A stretch of DNA of 64,000 nt from Hahella sp. CCB-MM4. GTDB lineage: Bacteria > Pseudomonadota > Gammaproteobacteria > Pseudomonadales > Oleiphilaceae. Under the pieces are notes generated by a model. That model made no database searches and was not told the origin of the DNA. It worked only from the letters and a program-made list of their open reading frames with translations. Where the stretch lies: assembly GCF_002260525.1 (NCBI RefSeq), contig NZ_MRYI01000019.1:1-64000 (forward strand). The letters are read 5' to 3'. Positions 43,699 through 55,466 of this stretch are shown here, in pieces. How positions within the stretch are numbered: position 1 is the stretch's first letter; each line of letters starts with the position of its first letter. Both the position numbers and the translations under genes were made by a program.

Positions 43699-46134
43699 TC
43701 AATCTGACTGGGTGATAGGCAGTTCCTCGGGATGGAAATGATCCACTTGAATAGCATCGTCCACTGCCGCTGCGGCTTCAGCAATTTTTTTGGATTCGGA
43801 TTCTGTGAGTATTTTCAGCTCACGGGCTTGTTGCAACAATTCCTCCAATGGCAGATTTTCGTCCAGTCGATTGTCCTTGAGCGCCTGTTTGAGAGTTTTC
43901 TCTGCCGACTCTGCTGCAGTCTTGAGCAGGAAGGCATTTTCCACCCGTCCTATGGGATCATCGGGCTGGGTGCTTCGATAAACGCCGTCTACCAGTCTGT
44001 CCCTGGCTACAGAAGGTCTTAGCAGTAGTTCGGCGATAGCGTCTTCTGTGAGGTCATCTGCTGGTTCCATGTGACGTCCGAGTGGAAAAATCACGGTCCT
44101 CATGAATATTGCCAGCAGCGGTGAAGGGTAATTTTTTAACGTTTCATGCAGTGCCTGCTGGATATTGTAGAGACAGTGTTTAACAGACCAGTCGAGCAGA
44201 GGCACGTCTTCCCGGGGGCATTGATCATCGTGGAAACGTTTTATAACCGTCGACGCGAGATACAGATAGCTCAGGCAGTCTCCCAGTCTTGCAGAGGTTT
44301 TTTCCCGGCGCTTGAGATCTCCACCCAGGGCCATCAGTGTGACATCGCTCAACAAGGCAAATGCCGCGGCAAAGCGTGTCAGATGCTGGAAATAGCGCTT
44401 GGTGCTGGGATGGTGTTCCGGAACTTCCGCAATCAAACTGCCGGTTAGACCAAGCATCAGGCTTTTTCCGGTAAGCTGAACATTGCGATGGATATGCTTG
44501 AAGAAGACGTGATCGAAGGCCTGGAGTCCCTTTTCCCGATCTTCCATTTGAACCGCTTCCATCTCTGAGAGCAGATAGGGGTGGGAGCGAATGGAGCCCT
44601 GTCCAAAGATCATCAGGCTACGGGTAAGAATGTTGGCTCCTTCGACGGTAATGCTGATAGGAATCGCCTGGTAGACCCGGGCAATGTAGTTTCGAGGACC
44701 CTTGATGACTCCTCGGCCCGCATGAATGTCCATTGCATGGCCGACAACTTTGCGCATTTTTTCCGTGTTGTGATATTTCAGGATCGCGGAAGGGACTGAG
44801 GGTTTTTCCCCCTGGTCCAGTAGACCGGCGGTCAGACAGCGAGCGCTGTCCATGATATAGGTGAGGCCACCGATGGGTGCCAGGGCTTCCTTGACCCCCT
44901 CAAAAAAGCCTATGGGTAAGCCGAACTGCTCTCTGATTCGGGCATAGGCCCCGGATGTCAGACTGGATAATTTTCCTGCGCCGGTGGCCAGTGCCGGTAG
45001 GGAAATGGCGCGTCCCACGGCCAGGCAGTTCATCAGCATCATCCAGCCTTTGCCGATAAAGTCTTCGCCACCAATGAGATAATCCAGCGGTACAAAAACA
45101 TCCTTGCCCCAGGTTGGCCCGTTCATGAACACGGTATTCAATGGCAAGTGGCGGGCGCCGGTCTGCACCCCGGGAGTATTAGTCGGGATAAGTGCACAGG
45201 TCACCCCGCGATCGACAACGTCACTTAACAGCTTGTCCGGGTCATAGACTTTGAATGCCAGGCCGAGAATCGTGGCAACGGGGGCGAGGGTGATATAGCG
45301 TTTGTTCCAGTTCAGACGCAAGCCGATCACTTCTTTTCCTTCCCATTCCCCCTTACATACGATGCCTGTATCGGGTATAGCCCCGGCATCTGATCCGGCT
45401 TGGGGACCGGTGAGCGCAAAACAGGGTATTTCCTGTCCTTTGGCCAGCCGCGGAAGATAGTAGTCCCGTTGCTTCTGGGTTCCATAATGCATGAGCAGTT
45501 CTGCCGGGCCCAGTGAATTGGGCACCATGACCGTGACCGCTGCGGTGATGCTTCGGGTCGCGATTTTCATGACCGCGGTGGAATGGGCGAGGGCGGAAAG
45601 CTCCAGGCCTCCGTATTTTTTCGGCACGATCATGCCGAAGAATCCGTTGTCCTTGATGAACTGCCAAATTTCCGGGGGCAGATCGTAACGCTCATGGGTG
45701 ATTTCCCAATCGTTCAGCCTGGTGCAAAGGTCGTTGACCGGACCATTGATAAAGGCCTTTTCCGATTCGGATAGTTCCGGCTTGGGAAGATTGAGCAGAT
45801 GGTGCCAATTGGGCAGACCGCTGAATAATTCTCCATCCCAACTGACCGTGCCGGCTGCGATGGCTTCTTTTTCGGTATCGGATAGTCCCGGCAGGACTTT
45901 CCTGACCCAATCGAATATTCGGGTGGTCAGGTATTGTTTTCTGATGTCGGGAAGGTTCAGTAAGGTGATTGCGGCAATATAGGCCGCCCAGAGAACCAAT
46001 AGCCCCATGAGGCTGGGATCTATCAGACTGTAAAGCAGGATGCCGATCGTCAGCAGTAGACTCCAGGCAATGGCTTCTCCCCCCAGATACGCAAGAATCA
46101 GAGCTGCCAGTATAAACAGCAGAAATAACGCCAT
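43699..46134 (-). CDS. fadE: Acyl-CoA dehydrogenase
   Basis: An 811-aa membrane-associated acyl-CoA dehydrogenase, the first enzyme of fatty acid beta-oxidation. The length matches E. coli-type FadE. It has an N-terminal hydrophobic region (about 1-55), the acyl-CoA dehydrogenase core (PKKYGGLELSALAHS, FALTGPQAGSDAGAIPD), and the FadE C-terminal extension of about 280 aa. It is monocistronic. No fad genes neighbour it. Confidence 0.94.
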   Translation of the reverse strand: MALFLLFILAALILAYLGGEAIAWSLLLTIGILLYSLIDPSLMGLLVLWAAYIAAITLLNLPDIRKQYLTTRIFDWVRKVLPGLSDTEKEAIAAGTVSWDGELFSGLPNWHHLLNLPKPELSESEKAFINGPVNDLCTRLNDWEITHERYDLPPEIWQFIKDNGFFGMIVPKKYGGLELSALAHSTAVMKIATRSITAAVTVMVPNSLGPAELLMHYGTQKQRDYYLPRLAKGQEIPCFALTGPQAGSDAGAIPDTGIVCKGEWEGKEVIGLRLNWNKRYITLAPVATILGLAFKVYDPDKLLSDVVDRGVTCALIPTNTPGVQTGARHLPLNTVFMNGPTWGKDVFVPLDYLIGGEDFIGKGWMMLMNCLAVGRAISLPALATGAGKLSSLTSGAYARIREQFGLPIGFFEGVKEALAPIGGLTYIMDSARCLTAGLLDQGEKPSVPSAILKYHNTEKMRKVVGHAMDIHAGRGVIKGPRNYIARVYQAIPISITVEGANILTRSLMIFGQGSIRSHPYLLSEMEAVQMEDREKGLQAFDHVFFKHIHRNVQLTGKSLMLGLTGSLIAEVPEHHPSTKRYFQHLTRFAAAFALLSDVTLMALGGDLKRREKTSARLGDCLSYLYLASTVIKRFHDDQCPREDVPLLDWSVKHCLYNIQQALHETLKNYPSPLLAIFMRTVIFPLGRHMEPADDLTEDAIAELLLRPSVARDRLVDGVYRSTQPDDPIGRVENAFLLKTAAESAEKTLKQALKDNRLDENLPLEELLQQARELKILTESESKKIAEAAAAVDDAIQVDHFHPEELPITQSD

Positions 46135-46549
46135 GTCATCCTCCTTGGATGTCTCGAGAAGTTCGTGCTGATCTTTTCTTGGTATTCTCTCGGTACAGGC
46201 TTAATCCGACGTTGCCATATCATAGGGCTGAATGCCGATATTTCCATTACCCTAACATCGTGAATGAGAAGAATAAACGGCTTCTTCACCGGCGGTCGTT
46301 CTGTTCCTGAACGCAATACGATGGGGAGAAGCCAGTGGGTGAATCTGTATGGCTGTTAATGTCAGGCGGGAGTGAGAATTCCAGGCAGAAGTAAGATGTG
46401 TAAAAACGCCAGTTAAGGAAAACGGACAGACACAGGCTGGAGATAAAACTCGGTAGAGAGAAATTGACCAGAGAGAAAGGCTGGTAGAAAGTAAGCTGAG
46501 AAAGATAAAAGGGCAGGATCTAGGGTTGATCCTGCCCCTGGTGAGGAAC
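46135..46549. other. Intergenic region between fadE and the P450 gene
   Basis: A 415-bp gap. It holds the P450 operon terminator near 46511 and, upstream of it on the minus strand, about six degraded copies of a 16-bp CTTTCTCTCTACCAG-like unit (about 46410-46500). The rest probably carries the fadE promoter. Confidence 0.5.
46507..46537 (-). terminator. Terminator of the aromatic biosynthesis operon
   Basis: Perfect 10-bp stem GGGCAGGATC / GATCCTGCCC with a 7-base loop. On the minus strand it is followed by TTTTATCTTT. It lies 12 bases after the P450 stop and marks the end of the minus-strand cluster. Confidence 0.85.
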
Positions 46550-48112
46550 TTATCTGCGCGGAGTGGCAATGATGCGGAAGTCTTTCGGCACCAGGAATAC
46601 TCCGGGAATGGTGCCCGGATCTGACTTTTCACCCGGGGCCAGGGAAAACTCAAAATGATGCATCAGATGTGCGCATAACAGGAATATCTGCATGCGTCCC
46701 AAATGCTCACCCAGGCATCTGCGTGGTCCGAGTCCGAATGGAAAGAATTTATTCTGCAGATCCTTACGCAATGCTCCTTCACTATCAAGGAAGCGTTCCG
46801 GCATGAATTCGTCCGGAGCATCCCACACTGAAGGGTCACGGGTGATGCTGTAGTAGTTTACAATCACCGGAGTATTTTTCTTCACGAAGTAATGGTTAAT
46901 GCTGGTGTCTTTGTTGGTGGCATAGTAAACCGCTGCCATTGGGCTGATCGCCGAATGTCTCAGCACTTCGTTCACAAAAGCCTGCATGTAAGGCATCTTG
47001 CTACGGTCCGACATCTTCGGATCTGCGTCAGGGCCGACAACCCGCTCCAACTCTTCGTGCGCTTTCTTTTGCACTTCCGGATGGTTAGCCAAATAGAGTA
47101 TTGCCCAGCGCTGGGCAAATGTTGGAACGCCTGTTCCAGCGCCTGAAAACTGGGTGAGTGAGCCGTTAACGATATCCTGGTCATGTAACTGGAATGTGTC
47201 ACGTTCCTCTTTGGTCAGCTTCATTCCGGCTTCCAGCAACCGGTCACACATATCCCGAATATTGTCAGGATCAAAAGACTGACGATGCTCTTCCACGTTT
47301 TCGGCAATATAGGCGCTCAGTCCGATAATCCCTTCCTTGAAATTGTCCAGCGAGCGTTTTCTGGTGAGATAAAACAGTGGTCGGCATGGCCCGGGCAGCA
47401 GCCCCAGTCTTACTGCATTCATGAAACCGCTGGGAAGAAGGGTCAGGCCATATTCATTGAAACCGTCCTTGTCTTCCTGACTGCAGCGGCGCCCAAAAAT
47501 AATTTTCTGGATAAAACTGAGGTTGGCCAGCGAGAGGCTTCGGTTGGGATCAAAGGGTTGGCCATGTTGATCCCGCATATATTGGGCCAGTTCCACCGCT
47601 TCCTCTCGTAGCGAGCTTTCAACTTCAGCCCAACGACCGGCGAAGTGATCGTGCATGGCGCCGACAAAAACTTCACGGTGTCGTTTCCAGTAGTCCCCGC
47701 TTTTCAATTCAAGGAAATGACGCTGAGGTGCTTCCTGAAGGATGTCAAAATCAGCCCGGTCGCTGAAAGTGTCACCCTGATCCACCAGGGCTTTCTTGAC
47801 TGTCTGCAGGCCGTTCAGGACCAGCAGGTCTTTCCCGGCGATGCCCAACTGGAATACGTCTCCATATTTGTCTGCAAGGCTGCTGAGCTTGAGATGCATT
47901 CTGTTGTTCAATAGTGGCTCCAGATTCTCCCAGGAAATTCTAGGTGGTCCCGGTAGGTGTTTTTGTACAGCGGAGGATTCACTAATTGATGAGACGAGTG
48001 CTGATTTGGTCTTGCTAAAAATATTCTTCGCTACTGATGATTCCATATCCGCGACTGATGACTTCACAGATGTATCTTCGGCAACGGCTTCTTTTCCTGT
48101 TGGGGTGTACAT
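46550..48112 (-). CDS. Cytochrome P450 (Bmp7-like candidate)
   Basis: A 520-aa heme-thiolate oxidase. The heme loop FFPFGLGPRRCLGEHLG carries the Cys ligand, and VNEVLRHS is the ExxR motif. No membrane anchor is obvious at the N terminus. The I-helix motif normally AGxDTT reads GAGTGVPTF, lacking the Asp/Glu-Thr acid-alcohol pair used for O2 activation. This suits P450s that perform radical coupling or rearrangement. It is last in a cluster with a chorismate lyase and FMO, like Bmp7 of the bacterial polybrominated aromatic pathway, which couples phenols. No ferredoxin or reductase gene is in the window. Confidence 0.88.
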   Translation of the reverse strand: MYTPTGKEAVAEDTSVKSSVADMESSVAKNIFSKTKSALVSSISESSAVQKHLPGPPRISWENLEPLLNNRMHLKLSSLADKYGDVFQLGIAGKDLLVLNGLQTVKKALVDQGDTFSDRADFDILQEAPQRHFLELKSGDYWKRHREVFVGAMHDHFAGRWAEVESSLREEAVELAQYMRDQHGQPFDPNRSLSLANLSFIQKIIFGRRCSQEDKDGFNEYGLTLLPSGFMNAVRLGLLPGPCRPLFYLTRKRSLDNFKEGIIGLSAYIAENVEEHRQSFDPDNIRDMCDRLLEAGMKLTKEERDTFQLHDQDIVNGSLTQFSGAGTGVPTFAQRWAILYLANHPEVQKKAHEELERVVGPDADPKMSDRSKMPYMQAFVNEVLRHSAISPMAAVYYATNKDTSINHYFVKKNTPVIVNYYSITRDPSVWDAPDEFMPERFLDSEGALRKDLQNKFFPFGLGPRRCLGEHLGRMQIFLLCAHLMHHFEFSLAPGEKSDPGTIPGVFLVPKDFRIIATPRR

Positions 48113-48230
48113 ATCTCCTGCGCTCCCTGTTTATATGCCTGTCTGTGTACCGGACGAGGTCATTATTCTGTCGTCCGGATGATGAAAAAATGTCTGCATG
48201 GCCCCGTGGTTTGTTGAGGCATCTTTGTCT

Positions 48231-49220
48231 TCAGGCTATTCCCTCCTGCGGCAGCCTCTGATATGTCCGGGTACGCAGCATCATCAGATTGATTCCTGAG
48301 AAGAGAACTACTGAGACCAGACCAAGAGTGATAATGTATGGCTGCATGGGGACCAGCAGCAGAGTTGATATCAAGTCGATCAGAATCAAAACCAGTAAGC
48401 TGTTGGAGATCACCTCTCGTTTGAGGAAGCTGCAGACGATAGCCCCTACTGGTGCTCCTACCACTACCACCGGGATTGCGGCATACCAATACTCAACAAC
48501 ACTGGCGGCCGTATCATTGAAAACGAAGTTGTGCAGGTAGGCCCCAATCATTGCGTTGAAGGCCATAATGACAACGGAGGTGGGGGTCGCCACTTTTTCG
48601 CAGATTCGAAAATACAGCACCATCACTGAGAAGATTACAATGTCGATGCCGCTGCCCTGCAAGCCACTGATGACACCGCCTGCCAGGCTGGCCGCAAAGA
48701 TGACTTTCACCTCCCGATAGCCCCAGGCAGGCATTGTGTCATGCCGGTTTTCGCGGCGGATGTTCAGCATTAGCAGCGTCAGCCCGAAACTGGTCAGGAT
48801 CATACTGAACAGAATCTTAACGGCTGTGGAGGGTATCAGTGGGGCCAGATAGGCTGCGCCCAGATATATCCCAATTGCGCCTGCGATGGTGCTGACCAGA
48901 ACAATCCTCCATTCTACTGTGATTCTGCGAACGACAATGAAGAACGTAGCTGTGCCCATGCCGACACTTTGAATCATCAGGGAAAACACGTTGGCGTCAA
49001 AAGAGGATACCTGCAGCACTTTGGTAAATACCGGGAAAGCGACGGCGCCGCCTCCCAGGCTGGTGCTTCCGGCAACAAAAGAGCCGAACAGCATGGTCAG
49101 GGCGACTTCCCAGTGATGTACGACGTAACCCAATGCCTGTAGTGGTCCCAGGCAGATCATCCACACAATCCACACGCAAGCTGCCGTCAGTATCACCGGC
49201 CTGATAGTTGAAAGCTTCAT
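48231..49220 (-). CDS. TauE/SafE-family membrane exporter
   Basis: A 329-aa inner-membrane protein of the sulfite exporter TauE/SafE family. It has about eight to nine TM segments and the repeated family motif forms (GSFVAGSTSLGGGAVAFPVF and LAGGVISGLQGSGIDIVIF). Family members move sulfite, sulfoacetate or other small organic anions. Here it lies between the P450 and the chorismate lyase genes. It may export the aromatic product or an intermediate anion. This is inference from position. Confidence 0.82.
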   Translation of the reverse strand: MKLSTIRPVILTAACVWIVWMICLGPLQALGYVVHHWEVALTMLFGSFVAGSTSLGGGAVAFPVFTKVLQVSSFDANVFSLMIQSVGMGTATFFIVVRRITVEWRIVLVSTIAGAIGIYLGAAYLAPLIPSTAVKILFSMILTSFGLTLLMLNIRRENRHDTMPAWGYREVKVIFAASLAGGVISGLQGSGIDIVIFSVMVLYFRICEKVATPTSVVIMAFNAMIGAYLHNFVFNDTAASVVEYWYAAIPVVVVGAPVGAIVCSFLKREVISNSLLVLILIDLISTLLLVPMQPYIITLGLVSVVLFSGINLMMLRTRTYQRLPQEGIA

Positions 49221-49287
49221 AAAGTTTCCAGCCTGGAAAGTAAGCGGGCTCTATATCACCAGTTGTCAGGATGACCGCATGGTGCTC

Positions 49288-49887
49288 CTAATATGCCCCG
49301 ACTGAGGCCTGTTGCTGTTTTCTGATCAATGAGCCATCAAGGAACCACTGTTTTGGGAATTTCTCGGTTATCTGCATGACGGGTTTCTTTTGAGAGAAAA
49401 CCCTGTAGGTGCGGAACAGCAGCATATCTGTCTGATCAATTGAAAACAGGTCGGCAAGGTTTCCGGCGGGTTCCTCTCCCCATTCATCCAGGCTTTTGTA
49501 AGTTTCGACCCGGAACAGTTCCCATATCTTTCCGATAGGGGTGCCGGTATTCAGAAGTGTGTCGGCAAACTCTTTGTCCAGGTTATCCTGGGCAATCAGT
49601 GAGTCTGCGTAGAGATAGTTCAGTCCGCTGTGTTTTCCCTGCAGAGTGATCATCCGGCGCCATATGGGTTGTCCCTCTGTGAGCGCAAGCATGGGGAGAT
49701 CCTCGGTGGAAGGAGAGATATCTTCAAAAATTTTGTGGGCGTACAAATCCTCCTGCAGCATTTCCTCTAACAGGTTTGTCATGGTGCCGTCAGAGTTGAG
49801 CAAAATCCTTTGCAGTATGCTCAGGTGTTCCTCCAGCTCAAACTGATCATTCTGAGAGCGTAGATTTTCTTTGGATATCTTGATCAT
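49288..49887 (-). CDS. Chorismate lyase-like protein (Bmp6-like candidate)
   Basis: A 199-aa protein of the chorismate pyruvate-lyase/UbiC-like fold (DUF98 branch). The pattern includes LQRILLNSDGTMTNLLEEML, IWRRMITLQGKHSGLNYLYADSLI with the conserved Arg, GTPIGKIWELFRVET with the catalytic-pocket Glu, and a terminal ITEKFPKQWF. It splits chorismate to 4-hydroxybenzoate and pyruvate. It is not in a ubiquinone (ubiA) operon. Its neighbours (DAHP synthase, FMO and P450) argue for dedicated supply of 4-hydroxybenzoate to a secondary metabolite, as Bmp6 does. Confidence 0.8.
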   Translation of the reverse strand: MIKISKENLRSQNDQFELEEHLSILQRILLNSDGTMTNLLEEMLQEDLYAHKIFEDISPSTEDLPMLALTEGQPIWRRMITLQGKHSGLNYLYADSLIAQDNLDKEFADTLLNTGTPIGKIWELFRVETYKSLDEWGEEPAGNLADLFSIDQTDMLLFRTYRVFSQKKPVMQITEKFPKQWFLDGSLIRKQQQASVGAY

Positions 49888-49927
49888 GGTGACATTTCCA
49901 TATGAGCACTAAAAGGGTCTGATAGAG

Positions 49928-49953
49928 AGCCGGCACAGACAGTCGTGCCGGCT
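49928..49953. terminator. Intercistronic hairpin between FMO and chorismate lyase genes
   Basis: Perfect 9-bp stem AGCCGGCAC / GTGCCGGCT with an 8-base loop. TTTTA follows only on the plus strand. On the operon strand it could act as a partial terminator or an mRNA stabiliser that sets the ratio of the two products. Confidence 0.5.
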
Positions 49954-49996
49954 TTTACTACCGTTAGGTGCAGGAAGCTGCTAAAGACCGGTTATT

Positions 49997-50032
49997 GTTA
50001 ACAGCCAAATATCATTAACAACCAAAGTATCA
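49997..50032 (-). repeat. Short tandem repeat at the FMO stop codon
   Basis: On the minus strand the stop TGA opens the first of two copies of an about 17-bp unit: TGATACTTTGGTTGTTAA and TGATATTTGGCTGTTAA. This is another post-stop repeat. Confidence 0.6.
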
Positions 50033-51607
50033 GTTACCGGCAATGCTGAAAGCGCTCTGCGTCATTCTCCTGATTTTGAACTGGGGAAGCTTGTGCAGAA
50101 TCTTGCAGGCGAGATCTCCGGCCTCCAAATAAGCGATCCTTTTCCAATCACTGATATTCGGGAAGTTCATCAGGAAATTTTCAGCTTCCTTGGGCATGCT
50201 GTGAGGACCGGTAAGCCTGTATTGAATGGCAAATTGCGGTCCGTGCAGCAGCTTGATGCGCAAACCGGGGTTTTGCCACAAGGCCGGGATCTTGGGCATA
50301 CAGCCCACCAACTTCGCTATGGAATCCATGTAGTGGCAGTAGTTCACCAGAGAGGCCACCTGTGGAGTGATTCGATATTCATCACGCCAATGCTGAGCAT
50401 CTTCACGGATGACTCGTCTTTGTTCGGATAGCGAGGGGAGTTCATGCTTGTTACTGCACAGCTGGGCAAGATACCGGGACTGCATTTCAGCAATGGCTGG
50501 AACACCGCCCTGTTGTGGCCGCGCGAATCCGACAAACGCCAATGACTGACCGATTTCGGGAATGAACATCTGTTTATACAAATCCCGCATGTCGGAGATC
50601 ATCATATCCAGGAATGGGAATTCCAGCTTATAACCGGTGCAGAAAACAACGGCATCGATTTCTTCCCGCGTCCCATCCTTGAAGGTCACACCGGTTTCAT
50701 CAAACATTTTGATGCCGCCAATATGTGGCGTTACCAATCCGTCAGCGATCGGTTTGAATACACGCTCATTCTTGGTGACGGCCTGGTGGAATGATGGTCC
50801 GGATTTTATCAGCCACTCACCGCGAATACGCAGGTCCGGGTTACGGCTGTTGATATAGCGGTGGAAGATTCCTTTGGTGATGCCGGCGTGAAAGCGGTGG
50901 GGGAGGCGGTTGACGATGCGGGAGGTGAGCCAGGAAGTGTCGATGGTAAAATACTCGTCCTCCTGGAAGGACATAAATCGGGGGGCGACTGCGTGGTATC
51001 GGCGGAGTGAGAGGATACACTTGCTGGCAACACTGGATATCTCCGAAGTGATATCGGCAGAGCTTTCTCCCATGCCAACACAGAGCACTCTCTTGCCTTC
51101 ATAAACGTTCTTATCCCGATAATACTTTGAGTGAATAACGCTTCCGGAAAATTTATCCAGGCCTGGGATCTCGGGCATTTTGGGGTGCTGGAAGTGCCCG
51201 GAACATACCGCGACGACGTCAAATTCGGAGGTTTCGACCTGATCGCCGGTAGCGGTCTCAACTTCCCACATTTTGGTGTCGGGGTCCTGTTTGATAGAGC
51301 GGACTTCGGTGTTGTAGCGGATTTTGTCGTCCAGGCCGAATTTATTCAGATAGGACTGAAGATACTTGCGGTAATCTGCTTTTGACCAGAATTTAAGGCG
51401 CTCGTTGGTTGGCATGAAATCCGAGTAGGCCATAAAGTAGTTTGATATCGTCAGGTGCAGATCGTCATATATTTCATTATGGGAAAATACTCCCCCGGGG
51501 TTATCCAGTTTCTCAAAACATATGACGTTGTGACCCTCATCCGTTAATTGCTTAATAGCCGCAATACCAGACAGTCCAGCGCCTATAACAGCTATGCTTT
51601 TTTTCAT
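50030..51607 (-). CDS. Flavin-containing monooxygenase-type enzyme (Bmp5-like candidate)
   Basis: A 525-aa FAD/NADPH-dependent enzyme of the FMO family. The FAD motif GAGLSG is at 9-14, the FMO fingerprint FSGSVIHSKYY at 153-163, and the NADP-binding motif GMGESSAD at 178-185. No WxWxIP motif of tryptophan-type halogenases is present. Single-component FMO-type enzymes include Bmp5, which brominates and decarboxylates 4-hydroxybenzoate to bromophenols. The adjacent chorismate lyase and P450 make Bmp5-like chemistry the leading hypothesis. A plain hydroxylase is the alternative. GGAGAT precedes the ATG. Confidence 0.85.
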   Translation of the reverse strand: MKKSIAVIGAGLSGIAAIKQLTDEGHNVICFEKLDNPGGVFSHNEIYDDLHLTISNYFMAYSDFMPTNERLKFWSKADYRKYLQSYLNKFGLDDKIRYNTEVRSIKQDPDTKMWEVETATGDQVETSEFDVVAVCSGHFQHPKMPEIPGLDKFSGSVIHSKYYRDKNVYEGKRVLCVGMGESSADITSEISSVASKCILSLRRYHAVAPRFMSFQEDEYFTIDTSWLTSRIVNRLPHRFHAGITKGIFHRYINSRNPDLRIRGEWLIKSGPSFHQAVTKNERVFKPIADGLVTPHIGGIKMFDETGVTFKDGTREEIDAVVFCTGYKLEFPFLDMMISDMRDLYKQMFIPEIGQSLAFVGFARPQQGGVPAIAEMQSRYLAQLCSNKHELPSLSEQRRVIREDAQHWRDEYRITPQVASLVNYCHYMDSIAKLVGCMPKIPALWQNPGLRIKLLHGPQFAIQYRLTGPHSMPKEAENFLMNFPNISDWKRIAYLEAGDLACKILHKLPQFKIRRMTQSAFSIAGN

Positions 51608-51933
51608 TGTATATCTCCATTACAATTTCTTTATATGATGCGGATGCAATATCTGCGTATAAAATATATTGATGCCTGTTGGACGAAAAATGTTTTTATA
51701 CATATGTATAACGAGAGCGATATATCAAGCCGCCTGTAAAATATGCTAGATCAGTTTTGCCTATGTTAAATTGTAAAATTGCGACAGATATTGATGGAAT
51801 TATATGGCCAAGTTTTCTTGCTATTTTATCCAGTACAATACTGTATTGAATAAATGATTGAATGTTCAATAAGTCGACCTGTACCCGTAATTTCTCACTG
51901 CCATCCAACAGGAAGTAATCCTTTAATCTCCGG
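51608..51933. other. Intergenic region between FMO and DAHP synthase genes
   Basis: A 326-bp AT-rich gap. It contains the 13-bp motif TAAAATTGCGACA (51774-51786), also found upstream of the DAHP synthase gene. It probably carries a second promoter for the FMO-P450 part of the cluster. Confidence 0.5.
51774..51786. promoter_or_regulatory. Candidate operator upstream of the FMO gene
   Basis: TAAAATTGCGACA, 167 bases upstream of the FMO start. The same sequence with one change (TACAATTGCGACA) occurs at 53141-53153 before the DAHP synthase gene. It is a candidate binding site for the neighbouring AraC-type regulator. Confidence 0.5.
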
Positions 51934-53031
51934 TTATGCCATTTCTGCAACAGCAGGAATATTGGCTCGATCCTCGATGATGCGGGAGACGTTTTCGTTT
52001 AAGCCAAATATGACCCGCCGGGTTTCCTCCCAGCCGATACAGGCATCCGTAATCGATACGCCGTATTGAAGATTGTCCTTGTTTGAGGACATAGGCTGTT
52101 TGCCTTCATTGATGTGACTTTCCAGCATGACTCCTACAATCGGGCTGCCTTCTCTGATTTGCAGACCGACGTTTTCGGCAACGATAGCCTGGCGTTTGAA
52201 GTTGCTTTCCGAGTTACCATGGCTGCAGTCAACGACAATACTCTGACTAAGCCCGGCTGCGCCCAGCATTTGCTCGGCTTCATTGACACAGCTCCGGGTG
52301 TAGTTGGGATGTCTGCCTCCGCGAAGGATGAGATGGACATTGGGGTTGCCCGTACTGTTGATCAGTGAGATGCAGCCGTCCGAGTTAATGCCCAGGAAGC
52401 GGTGTGCAGACGTGGCGGATTTCATGGCATTGACGGCAACATTGACGTTTCCGTCGGTACCGTTCTTGAATCCTACCGGCATTGACAGGCCACTCGCCAT
52501 TTCACGGTGAACCTGGGACTCCGTGGTACGTGCGCCTACAGCCACCCAGCTTATCAGGTCGCTGAGGTACTGCGGGGTCATTGGGTCCAGTGCTTCGGTT
52601 GCTGCCGGTAGTTCCAGATCAGCCAGGAACAGGAGGAGCTCCCTTGCGTTGTGCAACCCTTGTTCAACTTCAAAGGAGTCGTCCAGGTAAGGATCGTTGA
52701 TGAACCCCTTCCAGCCGACAGTTGTGCGTGGCTTTTCAAAGTACACCCGCATAACGATAAACAAGTTTTCCTTGTAGGCATCGTGCAGTTCCTTTAACCG
52801 ATACGCATATTCTTTGGCTGCTTGCATATCATGGATTGAACAGGGGCCGGTTATTACTAATACTCTCGGGTCTTTTTGTTGAATAATGCGGGAAACTGTA
52901 TTTCTTGATTTAATTATCATTTGAGTTATATCTCTTCCGGCAGGATATATCTCGCGGAGTTTTGCGGGACTGATAATCTGTTGTTCGCCGGAAACATGTA
53001 CGTTATCGATCTTATCCAGTGAGACTAGCAT
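51934..53031 (-). CDS. DAHP synthase, type I (AroFGH family)
   Basis: A 365-aa enzyme that condenses phosphoenolpyruvate and erythrose 4-phosphate, the first step of the shikimate pathway. Motifs are LVITGPCSIHDMQAAKEYA, GARTTESQVHREMASGLSMPVGFKNGTDG, LRGGRHPNY and VDCSHGNS. The ATG at 53031 has GAGG eight bases upstream, whereas the frame is open from 53061. Its place at the head of a chorismate lyase, FMO and P450 cluster suggests a dedicated isoenzyme that boosts chorismate supply for the pathway. Confidence 0.93.
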   Translation of the reverse strand: MLVSLDKIDNVHVSGEQQIISPAKLREIYPAGRDITQMIIKSRNTVSRIIQQKDPRVLVITGPCSIHDMQAAKEYAYRLKELHDAYKENLFIVMRVYFEKPRTTVGWKGFINDPYLDDSFEVEQGLHNARELLLFLADLELPAATEALDPMTPQYLSDLISWVAVGARTTESQVHREMASGLSMPVGFKNGTDGNVNVAVNAMKSATSAHRFLGINSDGCISLINSTGNPNVHLILRGGRHPNYTRSCVNEAEQMLGAAGLSQSIVVDCSHGNSESNFKRQAIVAENVGLQIREGSPIVGVMLESHINEGKQPMSSNKDNLQYGVSITDACIGWEETRRVIFGLNENVSRIIEDRANIPAVAEMA

Positions 53032-53140
53032 CCTTTTAACCTCGTTTTGTTTCCATAACATTGTCTGGTAAAAGCCAAGAGCTTGACCTTCAACTTAAGA
53101 GTCATATTCAGATTAAACGCAAAGGGAAAATGTCAAATAG

Positions 53141-53153
53141 TACAATTGCGACA
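53141..53153. promoter_or_regulatory. Candidate operator upstream of the DAHP synthase gene
   Basis: TACAATTGCGACA, 110 bases upstream of the DAHP synthase start, matching 12 of 13 bases with the motif at 51774-51786. Confidence 0.5.
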
Positions 53154-53368
53154 ATTTTGAGGATAAAAACGAGCGATCGATCGGAAAGGTATTGTAAAAC
53201 TGCAAGCTGTGAATTATGTCAAAAATTAAATATGGATGATGTTTAATGATGATATGTTGTTTTGTTGATAAAGGAAAAGACTGTTAAATAAATCGATGGA
53301 AGAGCTGACAGACAAGTTGATAGAAGGATTGTCGACGAATTCGAGAGAAAGTTAATGGGACAGGCCTG

Positions 53369-53397
53369 TGTCGACCCGGGACGAACCCGGTGCGACA
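53369..53397 (-). terminator. Hairpin after the AraC-type gene
   Basis: Stem of TGTCG / CGACA and CCGGG / CCCGG parts with a two-base mismatch and a 5-base loop, 22 bases after the stop on the minus strand. No T tract follows. It may separate the regulator from the biosynthetic operon. Confidence 0.4.
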
Positions 53398-53418
53398 AGC
53401 GAGGCGCTCAAGGAAAAA

Positions 53419-54219
53419 TTAATCTGTATATATTCTGCGGTATCTGTTTGGGGTAACCCCATAGATATTTTTAAATTCGCGGTTGAAGTGGGCCTGATCG
53501 TAGTATCCGCAGCGATAAGTTATCTCCAGGCAGGAAAGTGTCTGGCTGTTGGTCAGCATTTTTCTGGCGACATCTGCACGTAACAGCTTTACCAGTTTCT
53601 TGGGGCTCATTCCCATTTGTTTTTTGAACAGTCGTTGCAACTGCCGGATATCCACACCAATTTCTTCCACCAGGGACTGCAGTTCAATGTCGTATTGGTT
53701 GGCTGAAATTGATTTTAGTGCGGCCAGGACAACGGAGATGTTGTGGTCGGGCTCTGACAGGTTGTAGGCCAGCCAGGTCTCTATCGCAATGATCCGTTGT
53801 TTGTCTGTAATGCAGGATTCCAGGAATTCAAAAAAACGTTTGGGTAGCATGTACCCTATGGCGTAGAGGTTGTGGAAGGTATTATGGAATTTACTGAGGT
53901 CGGCATCGAAAAACAGGGAGAAGGTTCCCGGTTTGAACCGGATTCCAATGAGGCTGACTTTTCCCTTGAGTTCTAGCTGTACTTTTTTTGAGTTGGCGCC
54001 ATCAAAAAACACACCTTTGCCGAGTAGCTTCTTGTTTAACAGTATGTTGCCTTCCAGATTGATTATGACGCCTACCCCCCCATCAGGGTAGAAATCCACC
54101 ACTTCACTTTGCTCATAGTTGCCTGTGAGCATCAGATAGTAGTTCACATAGGGCGACAACAGTTTCCCCGGATAGATTATTCGGCCCGGTTGAACATCCT
54201 TTTCACACTCTGTATTCAT
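53419..54219 (-). CDS. AraC-family transcriptional regulator
   Basis: A 266-aa regulator. The N-terminal about 150 aa form a ligand-sensing domain with no recognised small-molecule family (YVNYYLMLTGNYEQ, GIRFKPGTFSLFF). The C-terminal AraC double helix-turn-helix is clear: LVEEIGVDIRQLQRLFKKQMGMSPKKLVKLLR and CLEITYRCGYYDQAHFNREFKNIYGVTPNRYRR. ATG 54219 is used; the frame is open 50 codons further upstream, but GGAA lies just before 54219. It precedes the DAHP synthase gene on the same strand and is the likely activator of the cluster. Confidence 0.85.
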   Translation of the reverse strand: MNTECEKDVQPGRIIYPGKLLSPYVNYYLMLTGNYEQSEVVDFYPDGGVGVIINLEGNILLNKKLLGKGVFFDGANSKKVQLELKGKVSLIGIRFKPGTFSLFFDADLSKFHNTFHNLYAIGYMLPKRFFEFLESCITDKQRIIAIETWLAYNLSEPDHNISVVLAALKSISANQYDIELQSLVEEIGVDIRQLQRLFKKQMGMSPKKLVKLLRADVARKMLTNSQTLSCLEITYRCGYYDQAHFNREFKNIYGVTPNRYRRIYTD

Positions 54220-54774
54220 CACTTTTTCCAACGCAAATATGATTATTAAGCAGTTGGACCAACCTGTTTGCCACAGCTTTCCACAACAAGGCCAGCGTAT
54301 GTTGGCCAAAGGATTCACGCGCATCCTTGGATAAGGCGCAGGTGTATACCGGAGCGAAAGTTCATCCAAACTAGTTGATGAAAAAACAAGAGGGGCTGTT
54401 ATGACGATCTGACACTCATATGGTTCTCTCCTATGGAAGATTGACTAATGATTCCTTCAAACAGAAACACCTCCAGATAGTGCTTCTGTCAGTCAACTGT
54501 ATCTTTCGAGCGCATTGGAACTGGCCTGTGTTGGCTTTATGAAAGCCAACAAGACTGGCAAACGCTAACGATGACTGTCAGTACGCGACGTGCGCAAGAC
54601 CTGACTTTGTACCTCTATTTATTATTAATATGGTAACCAAAATTACATGTCAATATGGTGTATCTATTAAAAATGATATAGGTAATTCGACTTTTGGATT
54701 AGTTATCACAACCTATCGATCAATCGGGCTGGCGCAAATCACACCCGTACAGGGTGATGATTCCCCGGGTTGTC
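54220..54774. other. Intergenic region between the AraC gene and udk
   Basis: A 555-bp AT-rich gap with no supported gene. It probably contains the regulator's promoter and the udk 3' region. No clear structure was recognised. Confidence 0.4.
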
Positions 54775-55401
54775 CTAATCCAGAAGCTGCTTGATACGTG
54801 CTTTGAGCATTTCAATTGCAACGCGGTTTTTTCCTCCTCGTGGAACAATGATATCGGCGAATTGTTTCGAAGGTTCTACAAACTCAAGAAACATGGGTCT
54901 GACGGTTTTTTTGTATTGTTGGACGATGGATTCCATGGTCCGTCCACGTTCTTCCATATCGCGTCGCAACCTGCGCAGCAAGCAGATATCAAGAGGGGTA
55001 TCCACGTAAATACTGGTATCCAGGCGTTGTCGGATATTTTTATCGCTTAGCAACAGAATACCTTCAACTATGATGACCTTTCGCGCTTCCATGGAAATTG
55101 TCTCGCGGCTACGGTTGTGTTCCTTGAAGTCGTAAACCGGAACATCGATCTGGCGATCCTCTCTCAATTCATCCAGATGTTCGACGAGGAGATCATGATC
55201 AAAGGCATTGGGGTGATCATAGTTGGTGAGAATTCTCTCGGGCATCTCCATATGGGATTGGTCTTTGTAGTAAGAATCCTCCTTGATGATACCGATCTGC
55301 CAGGCTCCGACCTCTTCCTTCAGTTCTTCGTAGATAGTGGCGGACAAGAGACTTTTTCCTGAGGCAGAGGCGCCGGTAATTCCGATAAAAATGGAGGACA
55401 T
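54775..55401 (-). CDS. udk: Uridine kinase
   Basis: A 208-aa P-loop kinase that phosphorylates uridine and cytidine in pyrimidine salvage. The Walker A is GASASGKS (residues about 9-16). Family motifs are [36 protein letters not shown] and IIVEGILLL. The ATG at 55401 begins the standard [17 protein letters not shown] opening, so the earlier start is not used. It is monocistronic. Confidence 0.93.
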
Positions 55402-55466
55402 GTTGGGTTTCCAGATCGTCAAAAGAGCCTAGTTTAACGATTCAGCCTTTATCGATGAACTATTTG

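Follow-up and report, generated by a model that had tools for sequence, protein, structure and literature searches.

A bmp-type gene cassette of Hahella sp. CCB-MM4 limited to the phenol branch: proposed chemistry, product and AraC switch

Genes and borders of the cluster

The window, i.e. the whole stretch of DNA analysed here, comprises 64,000 nucleotides of Hahella sp. CCB-MM4, a bacterium whose source habitat is mangrove mud. Six genes lie on its minus strand, encoding an AraC-family regulator, a DAHP synthase, an FMO-type flavin enzyme, a chorismate lyase, a TauE/SafE-family protein and a cytochrome P450 (Table 1). This arrangement, with the regulator upstream and a terminator after the P450, had been described in the initial annotation and was confirmed in all its parts. 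All six proteins score above the curated Pfam cut-offs (PF12833, PF20240, PF00793, PF00743, PF01947, PF01925 and PF00067) and all six reading frames are open. It should be noted that terminator-like sites such as the hairpin behind the P450 number 14 in the stretch, with 8.3 expected from shuffles.

Table 1. Features of the cluster, with positions in the window, strand and basis of assignment.
Feature	Position	Strand	Basis
AraC-family regulator (DUF6597 + HTH_18), 266 aa	53419..54219	-	Pfam PF12833 + PF20240
DAHP synthase (first step towards chorismate), 375 aa	51934..53061	-	PF00793, TIGR00034
Bmp5-type flavin-dependent brominase (FMO fold), 525 aa	50030..51607	-	PF00743 + Bmp5 clade
Bmp6-type chorismate lyase, 199 aa	49288..49887	-	PF01947 + identities
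TauE/SafE-family membrane protein, 329 aa	48231..49220	-	PF01925
Bmp7-type cytochrome P450, 520 aa	46550..48112	-	PF00067 + best solved relative 9ms3
Operator-like box before DAHP synthase (TGTCGCAATTGTACTATT)	53136..53153	-	
-10-like element TAATCT, 20 bases after DAHP synthase box	53110..53115	-	
Operator-like box before bmp5 (TGTCGCAATTTTACAATT)	51769..51786	-	
-10-like element TAGCAT, 20 bases after bmp5 box	51743..51748	-	
Intrinsic-terminator-like hairpin, 12 pairs, T-rich tail, 3' of P450 stop	46509..46539	-	
Inserted block with whole cluster, flanked by fadE and a uridine-kinase-family gene	46282..54773 (edges approximate)		collinearity with congener G006 (L048)

The borders of the cluster were found by comparison with a close congener (G006, locus L048), which is collinear on both sides and lacks the cluster genes; similarity ends near 46281 and resumes at 54774. 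This empty site therefore defines the cluster as a block of about 8.5 kb, and the regulator, the precursor enzyme, the three core enzymes and the TauE protein together form the unit by which the congeners differ. The cluster is present in one of the seven genomes of the genus. We detected no compositional sign of transfer in the G+C content (48.3% in the block vs 49.6% in the rest of the window), and the search for mobile-element signs at the block edges gave one exact 9-base repeat and nothing longer. A Microbulbifer host was considered and rejected, as the flanking fadE is only 50-52% identical to fadE of three Microbulbifer genomes.

A search with a Bmp5 profile at E 1e-120 matched only the Hahella genome itself among 369 genomes of the class and 163 of the family, and as the class draw gave no second positive it hardly informs on the frequency of bmp5 in the class. 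The initial annotation considered a possible new lineage, which does not hold, as Hahella is already listed with a bmp-type cluster in the available text of PMC10579414 and PMC9030710. The gene content is hence unsurprising; what the present analysis adds is the empty site with the block it defines, along with the operator-like box shared by two promoters.

Relationship of the proteins to known bmp systems

The FMO-type enzyme is 78% identical to its counterpart in Microbulbifer rhizosphaerae CECT 8799 (L005) and 65% identical to Bmp5 of Pseudoalteromonas luteoviolacea (L008), and over its length it shares 63-78% identity with the Bmp5 group. In a tree of 22 rows it was placed inside a Bmp5 group of 11 rows from Microbulbifer, Pseudoalteromonas and one MAG (support 100/99), and two FMO paralogues from its own genome along with an ancestral FMO5 fall apart from this group; these three rows, all with long branches, are the ordinary FMOs of the tree, which holds no Baeyer-Villiger row. 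The clustering with ordinary hydroxylases or Baeyer-Villiger enzymes that was initially named as part of the contrary outcome is thus not seen in this tree, and we rejected the reading as an ordinary FMO hydroxylase on the placement in the Bmp5 clade.

The lyase gene adjoins bmp5, and its product matches the chorismate lyase family PF01947 with 51.8 bits (cut-off 22), while pairwise comparison, the only one made for this protein, gave 61% identity to the M. rhizosphaerae protein and 42% to Bmp6 of P. luteoviolacea. The corresponding identities of the P450 are 64% and 43%. Its best solved relative is 9ms3, "Polybrominated aromatic compounds synthase", with 397 bits against 242 bits for the next solved P450; the P. 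luteoviolacea Bmp7 matches 9ms3 with 731 bits. In the P450 tree, where the sole ordinary P450 (from L021) served as outside row, a separate Microbulbifer-Hahella group was formed, and the alignment reveals an N-terminal insert as well as GAGTG in place of the GAGGG of Bmp7 in the presumed I-helix. With no more than 42-43% identity between the Bmp6 and Bmp7 counterparts and the proteins of Pseudoalteromonas, bromophenols may be coupled in another pattern here. The DAHP synthase matches TIGR00034 with 475 bits (cut-off 173) and is 62% identical to the M. rhizosphaerae copy. The comparison of FMO, lyase and P450 with Bmp5, Bmp6 and Bmp7, with phylogeny for the FMO and the P450, thus came out in favour of the bmp reading, and the FMO clade, the best solved relative of the P450 and the lyase identities all point to a pathway related to the Bmp5/6/7 route, as first suggested for this DNA.

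The reported lack of ferredoxin, reductase and pyrrole-branch genes holds genome-wide for Bmp9, Bmp10 and Bmp2. Searching the whole genome with Pseudoalteromonas proteins we found no close relative of the pyrrole halogenase Bmp2 (best of two matches 29%, E 1.5e-17), the ferredoxin Bmp9 (best 32%, E 2.1e-4) or the reductase Bmp10 (best 31%, E 2.4e-28). The labels of these queries were assigned in this analysis. In their Pfam families the ten genes of the L008 locus agree with the bmp1-10 list in PMC7918430.

Of the earlier designation "TauE/SafE exporter" the family assignment stands (PF01925, 79.9 bits, cut-off 32.6), while a role as conserved bmp exporter was not upheld. The protein shares 33-36% identity with the TauE beside Microbulbifer bmp genes and 34-36% with TauE from four further genomes of the genus, and is thus no closer to the former. 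TauE stretches, again with 33-36% identity, were found in four of the 25 named loci; further, its branch is saturated in a tree of eight rows, the L021 TauE not among them. The gene lies between bmp6 and bmp7 here and after the P450 gene in M. rhizosphaerae and M. litoralis (L007). Judged by sequence, it is not a clear orthologue of the TauE genes of these two loci, and that it exports the product, or some other anion, is a guess.

A box shared by two promoters

The AraC-family regulator is 62% and 58% identical to the upstream regulators of M. rhizosphaerae and M. litoralis, respectively, with 75% and 70% in the HTH part and 54% and 53% in the N-terminal part. Upstream of the DAHP synthase gene and of bmp5 lies a composite element in which a box of 18 bases, TGTCGyAAwTkTACwATy, is followed after 20 bases by TANNNT. 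The same element precedes both genes in M. rhizosphaerae and the DAHP synthase gene in M. litoralis, so that the box is based on five sites from three genomes. When a matrix was built solely from the Microbulbifer sites, three in number, the two window sites ranked first and second in 464 kb of the host genome (25.4 and 24.6), the next site scoring 18.0. TANNNT stands at one spacing in five of five sites and in none of 20000 shuffles at any gap of 10-25, a result which flatters the motif because the pattern was picked after viewing the same sequences.

At least two loose box matches occurred in 2 of 100 window shuffles, and in the reverse scan one site at another locus (L027) ties with the weakest true site and has no TANNNT. 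A plain sigma-70 scan gave 6 sites vs 12.4 by chance, and its -10 element for bmp5 is three bases off the one chosen here. The search for a second upstream copy of the box was not convincing (best 11/20), and no published operator for such clusters was found among the open-licence papers examined.

We propose the box as a candidate operator of the AraC-family regulator, whose binding is suggested by its homologues. It seems likely that one AraC-family activator, travelling with the cassette between marine genera, induces both the DAHP synthase and the brominase operon by way of a shared class-II-type promoter. The protein would then switch on two transcription units, the DAHP synthase gene and bmp5-bmp6-tauE-bmp7, from a bound box overlapping the -35 region of each promoter, and precursor supply and bromination would therefore be co-induced by one signal. 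With a much smaller probability the box serves some other factor, as its binding by the AraC protein is a prediction and the matrix scan of the window revealed no comparable box before the araC gene itself. Against this, two of the 25 named loci, like the window, have the composite element together with the AraC gene and a DAHP synthase gene, element and AraC gene both being absent in the other 23, and no third site near the window-site scores was found in the 464 kb (7%) of the host genome covered by the matrix scan.

An activator of both units bears on Microbulbifer TB12003, the sister strain of RZ01, in which a single-base deletion that eliminates the activator is accompanied by loss of activity; in the available text of PMC10579414 the mechanism is called "unclear" and the authors guess at an effect through the DAHP synthase alone. 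If true, the action on both units would directly explain the lack of product in TB12003, and the predicted operator makes the mechanism accessible to binding and reporter assays. The predicted operator is also a sequence tag for finding regulated clusters elsewhere.

Proposed pathway and alternatives

Polybrominated biphenyls and diphenyl ethers of bacterial origin are similar to industrial pollutants and have an inhibitory effect on algae, and which organisms make polybrominated aromatics, and when they do so, is an ecological question. We are confident that the present cluster is a bmp-type cassette of the phenol branch only, with the chemistry, product and AraC switch proposed here, and judging from the homologues its products are very probably brominated aromatic compounds that inhibit algae. 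The DAHP synthase would raise the flux into chorismate, which the Bmp6-type lyase would convert to 4-hydroxybenzoate. The Bmp5-type enzyme, a single-component flavin enzyme, would brominate and decarboxylate this to 2,4-dibromophenol, and the Bmp7-type P450, fed by general cellular ferredoxin and reductase proteins, would couple bromophenols in pairs, the most likely products being 3,3',5,5'-tetrabromo-2,2'-biphenyldiol as well as related biphenyls or hydroxylated diphenyl ethers.

Microbulbifer RZ01, compared here by text description, carries an HTH activator, DAHP synthase, halogenase, chorismate lyase and P450 in the same order (bp606-bp610), and its halogenase, lyase and P450 co-expressed with bromide gave tetrabromobiphenyldiol, while 2,4-dibromophenol was undetected from the halogenase without the P450; the available text mentions no TauE gene, whereas one lies between lyase and P450 here (PMC10579414). 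Microbulbifer clusters likewise have no pyrrole genes in the available description (PMC11285056). The M. rhizosphaerae locus has all six gene families and both operator-like boxes, but differs in its TauE, which is 33-34% identical to that of Hahella, and in a vanadium-chloroperoxidase-like gene between the DAHP synthase gene and bmp5. The order AraC-DAHPS-bmp5-bmp6-bmp7 along with the shared box is found in both M. rhizosphaerae and M. litoralis, with extra genes between in the former and TauE interposed here. In P. luteoviolacea and kin the bmp1-10 cluster has the same bmp5-bmp6-bmp7 tandem, but also a pyrrole branch, Bmp8, ferredoxin and reductase, and the examined DNA of 13 Pseudoalteromonas loci gave no AraC, DAHP synthase or TauE match and no composite box. 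Hormoscilla hs_bmp (PBDE) shares the core bmp5, 6 and 7 and a region of variable content separating bmp6 from bmp7, but is set apart by its description, in which this region holds P450 or halogenase genes, not TauE, and the host is cyanobacterial (PMC6520454, available text).

That the Bmp5-7 homologues make something else, for example an aromatic that is chlorinated, hydroxylated or hetero-coupled, the P450 choosing a different partner phenol, we regard as improbable. The divergence of the P450 described above, including its insert and altered I-helix motif, would fit such a product, and the host strain has tyrosinases acting on phenols (PMC11609597, available text), whereas the tetrabromobiphenyldiol of RZ01, formed from nearly the same gene order, and the closeness of the FMO to the Bmp5 group argue for the bromophenol route. 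Even less probable is a cluster that in CCB-MM4 is silent or in decay and yields no product; its restriction to one genome of the genus and the absence of a product report for Hahella sp. CCB-MM4 in the literature searched would agree with this, but the open frames, the operator pattern and the terminator-like hairpin are all kept. Finally, that the FMO is a hydroxylase of the ordinary type or a Baeyer-Villiger enzyme, with an unrelated P450 as neighbour, can practically be dismissed, for although the Pfam FMO-like family is broad and the best solved relatives of the FMO are ancestral mammalian-type FMOs, with Baeyer-Villiger enzymes ranking below them, the protein belongs to the Bmp5 clade and its neighbours are conserved.

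Identity of the cluster genes

All six genes proposed by the initial annotation (AraC regulator, DAHP synthase, FMO, chorismate lyase, TauE/SafE protein and P450) were found on the minus strand, flanked by a fadE-type acyl-CoA dehydrogenase gene and a uridine-kinase-family gene, and the terminator postulated after the P450 was seen as a terminator-like 12-pair hairpin directly following that gene. The G+C content of the window is 49.4%, and ARAGORN found no tRNA in it; the CCB-MM4 genome (6,663,740 bp, 161 scaffolds, N50 232,349) has 49.7% G+C (PMC5646410).

Coordinates of the flanking genes and of features observed in the host genome and in related loci
Feature	Coordinates	Remark
fadE-type acyl-CoA dehydrogenase gene	window 43699-46134	flanks the six-gene cluster
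Uridine-kinase-family gene	window 54775-55422	flanks the cluster, opposite side from fadE
84-codon TTG-started frame	window 51696-51950	spans the box before bmp5
DAHP synthase relative (L047)	G000:C45:55737-56747	host genome; 48%; one in-frame TAG
FMO-like domain (L002/L054)	G000:C77:59267-60631	host genome; within a 2552-codon open frame
Vanadium-chloroperoxidase-like gene (PF22778, PF21167), M. rhizosphaerae	L005:8248-9759	between DAHP synthase and bmp5
M. halophilus cluster	L006:8963-13331	O-methyltransferase, bmp5, bmp6, TauE; no P450 match in fetched DNA
Two tandem Bmp7-type P450 genes, M. litoralis	L007:12295-15283	each 49% to the window P450
bmp5 (63%) adjoining bmp6 (47%), bacterial MAG	L018:9989-12184	no P450 match in fetched DNA
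Bmp5-like gene (52%), Thiosymbion ectosymbiont MAG	L021:8968-17130	no Bmp6 recognised; neighbours are O-methyltransferase, sulfotransferase, P450 and sulfatase genes
Bmp5-like gene (54%), Myxococcales MAG	L020:9953-13830	near a carboxymuconolactone-decarboxylase-family gene, 32% to Bmp8

As reference we used the Pseudoalteromonas luteoviolacea locus L008, where ten adjacent genes fit by Pfam the bmp1-bmp10 list as printed in PMC7918430: carrier protein plus hydrolase, tryptophan-halogenase family, acyl-CoA dehydrogenase and AMP-binding (bmp1-bmp4); FMO, chorismate lyase and P450 (bmp5-bmp7); carboxymuconolactone decarboxylase (below cut-off), 2Fe-2S ferredoxin and reductase (bmp8-bmp10). It should be noted that these labels were assigned in the present analysis and that the enzyme assays were done on strains other than L008. 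With the L008 proteins as queries, bmp1 left out, bmp2-bmp7 were recognised in 13/13 Pseudoalteromonas loci, with a short bmp2 frame in L011. Of these loci, bmp8 and bmp10 were each recognised in 12 and bmp9 in 10; no separate bmp9 frame was seen in L012 and L025, and the L014 locus is cut off.

A scan for the FMO in the named genomes gave 25 loci, the best being three from Microbulbifer (78, 73 and 71%) and 13 from Pseudoalteromonas (65-66%). The FMO phylogeny comprised 22 rows: the window, 18 of the 25 loci, two of the three own-genome paralogues and the ancestral FMO5 structure 6sek. Here the window FMO and its three Microbulbifer counterparts form a group (94/96) within a Bmp5 group of 11 rows (100/99), as the suggested kinship to Bmp5 implied. 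The two paralogues and the ancestral FMO5 lie outside this group on long branches; the deeper forks are weak. The FMO-like domain in the 2552-codon frame of the host had no FMO-like match in six congeners at E 1e-20.

The kinship suggested for the other two enzymes was likewise supported. Among solved structures the P450 comes closest to 9ms3, 'Polybrominated aromatic compounds synthase', with 397 bits against 242 for CYP1A1, the next in rank; 9ms3 in turn scores 731 bits against L008 Bmp7. A tree of 10 rows joins the window P450 to those of Microbulbifer (85/97), next to a group formed by Pseudoalteromonas and 9ms3 (100/100). The chorismate lyase belongs to PF01947 and is 61% identical to that of M. 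rhizosphaerae and 42% to L008 Bmp6. On sequence grounds our verdict is an intact bmp-type phenol-branch cassette, nearest to Microbulbifer.

Ferredoxin, reductase and pyrrole-branch genes had been described as absent from the window, and in agreement with this the best matches in the whole host genome reached only 31% to Bmp10, 32% to Bmp9 (E 2.1e-4) and 29% to Bmp2. Pyrrole genes are likewise absent from the Microbulbifer clusters described in PMC11285056. When the three genes of Microbulbifer strain RZ01 were co-expressed in E. coli, 4-hydroxybenzoate and bromide gave tetrabromobiphenyldiol, and section 6 of that paper mentions no added redox partner (PMC10579414). DAHP synthase has three matches in the host: the cluster copy, one at 55% and one at 48%.

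The six-gene block and earlier listings

The close congener G006 is collinear with the window from an LPMO gene to lysE, and its fadE is 91% identical to that of the window; there fadE and the kinase gene adjoin, and no match to the window FMO was found at E 1e-60. Similarity ends near 46281 and restarts at 54774; the roughly 8.5 kb by which the two differ comprise the six genes and their spacers. In four further congeners, the 15 kb around fadE gave no match to any of the 12 other window proteins tested, and the sixth congener gave no fadE match at E 1e-100. As 6/6 congeners are without the FMO, gain of the block by CCB-MM4 is a simpler reading than loss. The block edges carry no repeat longer than 9 bases and no composition shift.

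The TauE gene is part of this block. TauE-family stretches lie near bmp5 in L005, L006 and L007, and more distantly in L021. The window protein is 33-36% identical to these and 34-36% to TauE of four other genomes of the genus, and it has no placement in the tree.

The possible new lineage put forward by the initial annotation did not stand, as Hahella is already listed with this cluster type: an antiSMASH survey of five Hahella genomes including CCB-MM4 lists a 'PBDE' cluster, with no strain seen to be named for it (PMC9030710), and in PMC10579414 Hahella is one of eight genera listed as having the three bmp genes in tandem. The FMO occurs in 1/7 genomes of the genus, the host only, hence these listings most likely refer to the present locus. 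What is new is the limits of the block and a strong candidate operator, the cassette itself being already listed for the genus. Our literature search found no report of a product for CCB-MM4, and in PMC11609597, which deals with the tyrosinases of this strain, no word starts with brom- or halogen-.

A candidate operator

Comparison of the intergenic DNA of the window, L005 and L007 revealed one recurrent 20-mer, with the 18-base core TGTCGyAAwTkTACwATy. The core precedes both DAHP synthase and bmp5 in the window and in L005; in L007 it precedes DAHP synthase, and bmp5 comes 84 bases after that gene. Allowing up to 3 mismatches, the window holds two matches only, both exact (0.16 expected), and at least two were found in 2/100 shuffled windows. 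A matrix built from the three Microbulbifer sites alone ranked the window sites first and second (25.4 and 24.6; next 18.0) in 464 kb of host genome, made up of the window and 20 further stretches of 20 kb each. When the matrix was instead built from the two window sites and run over the 25 named loci (523 kb), the Microbulbifer sites took the first, the second and a shared third place, the third being tied with a site in L027 without the second element TANNNT.

This second element lies exactly 20 bases after the core in 5/5 sites, and at the other gaps from 0 to 39 it occurs at most once; 0/20000 single-base shuffles gave 5/5, for an element picked after the sequences were inspected. Of the 25 named loci, only L005 and L007 have the composite element, and only these two gave matches to AraC and DAHP synthase. 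The element is lacking in L006, where the fetched DNA gave no AraC, DAHP synthase or P450 match, and in the Pseudoalteromonas loci. Against L005 and L007, the HTH part of the regulator is better conserved (75/70%) than the N-terminal part (54/53%).

We read the core as a candidate AraC-family activator site overlapping the -35 region. Against this stand the number of sites, five in three genomes, the lack of a box ahead of araC, and a plain sigma-70 scan that gave fewer sites than expected by chance. Such an activator site would stand ahead of the brominase operon as well as of DAHP synthase, the precursor gene. In PMC10579414 it is speculated that the activator works via DAHP synthase; as the candidate box also precedes bmp5, our prediction suggests that the brominase may be under direct control as well. 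The TTG-started frame spanning this box is probably due to chance.

Related bmp loci

The vanadium-chloroperoxidase-like gene of M. rhizosphaerae represents a second kind of halogenating enzyme within a bmp cluster. The M. halophilus cluster perhaps serves bromophenols or bromoanisoles without coupling.
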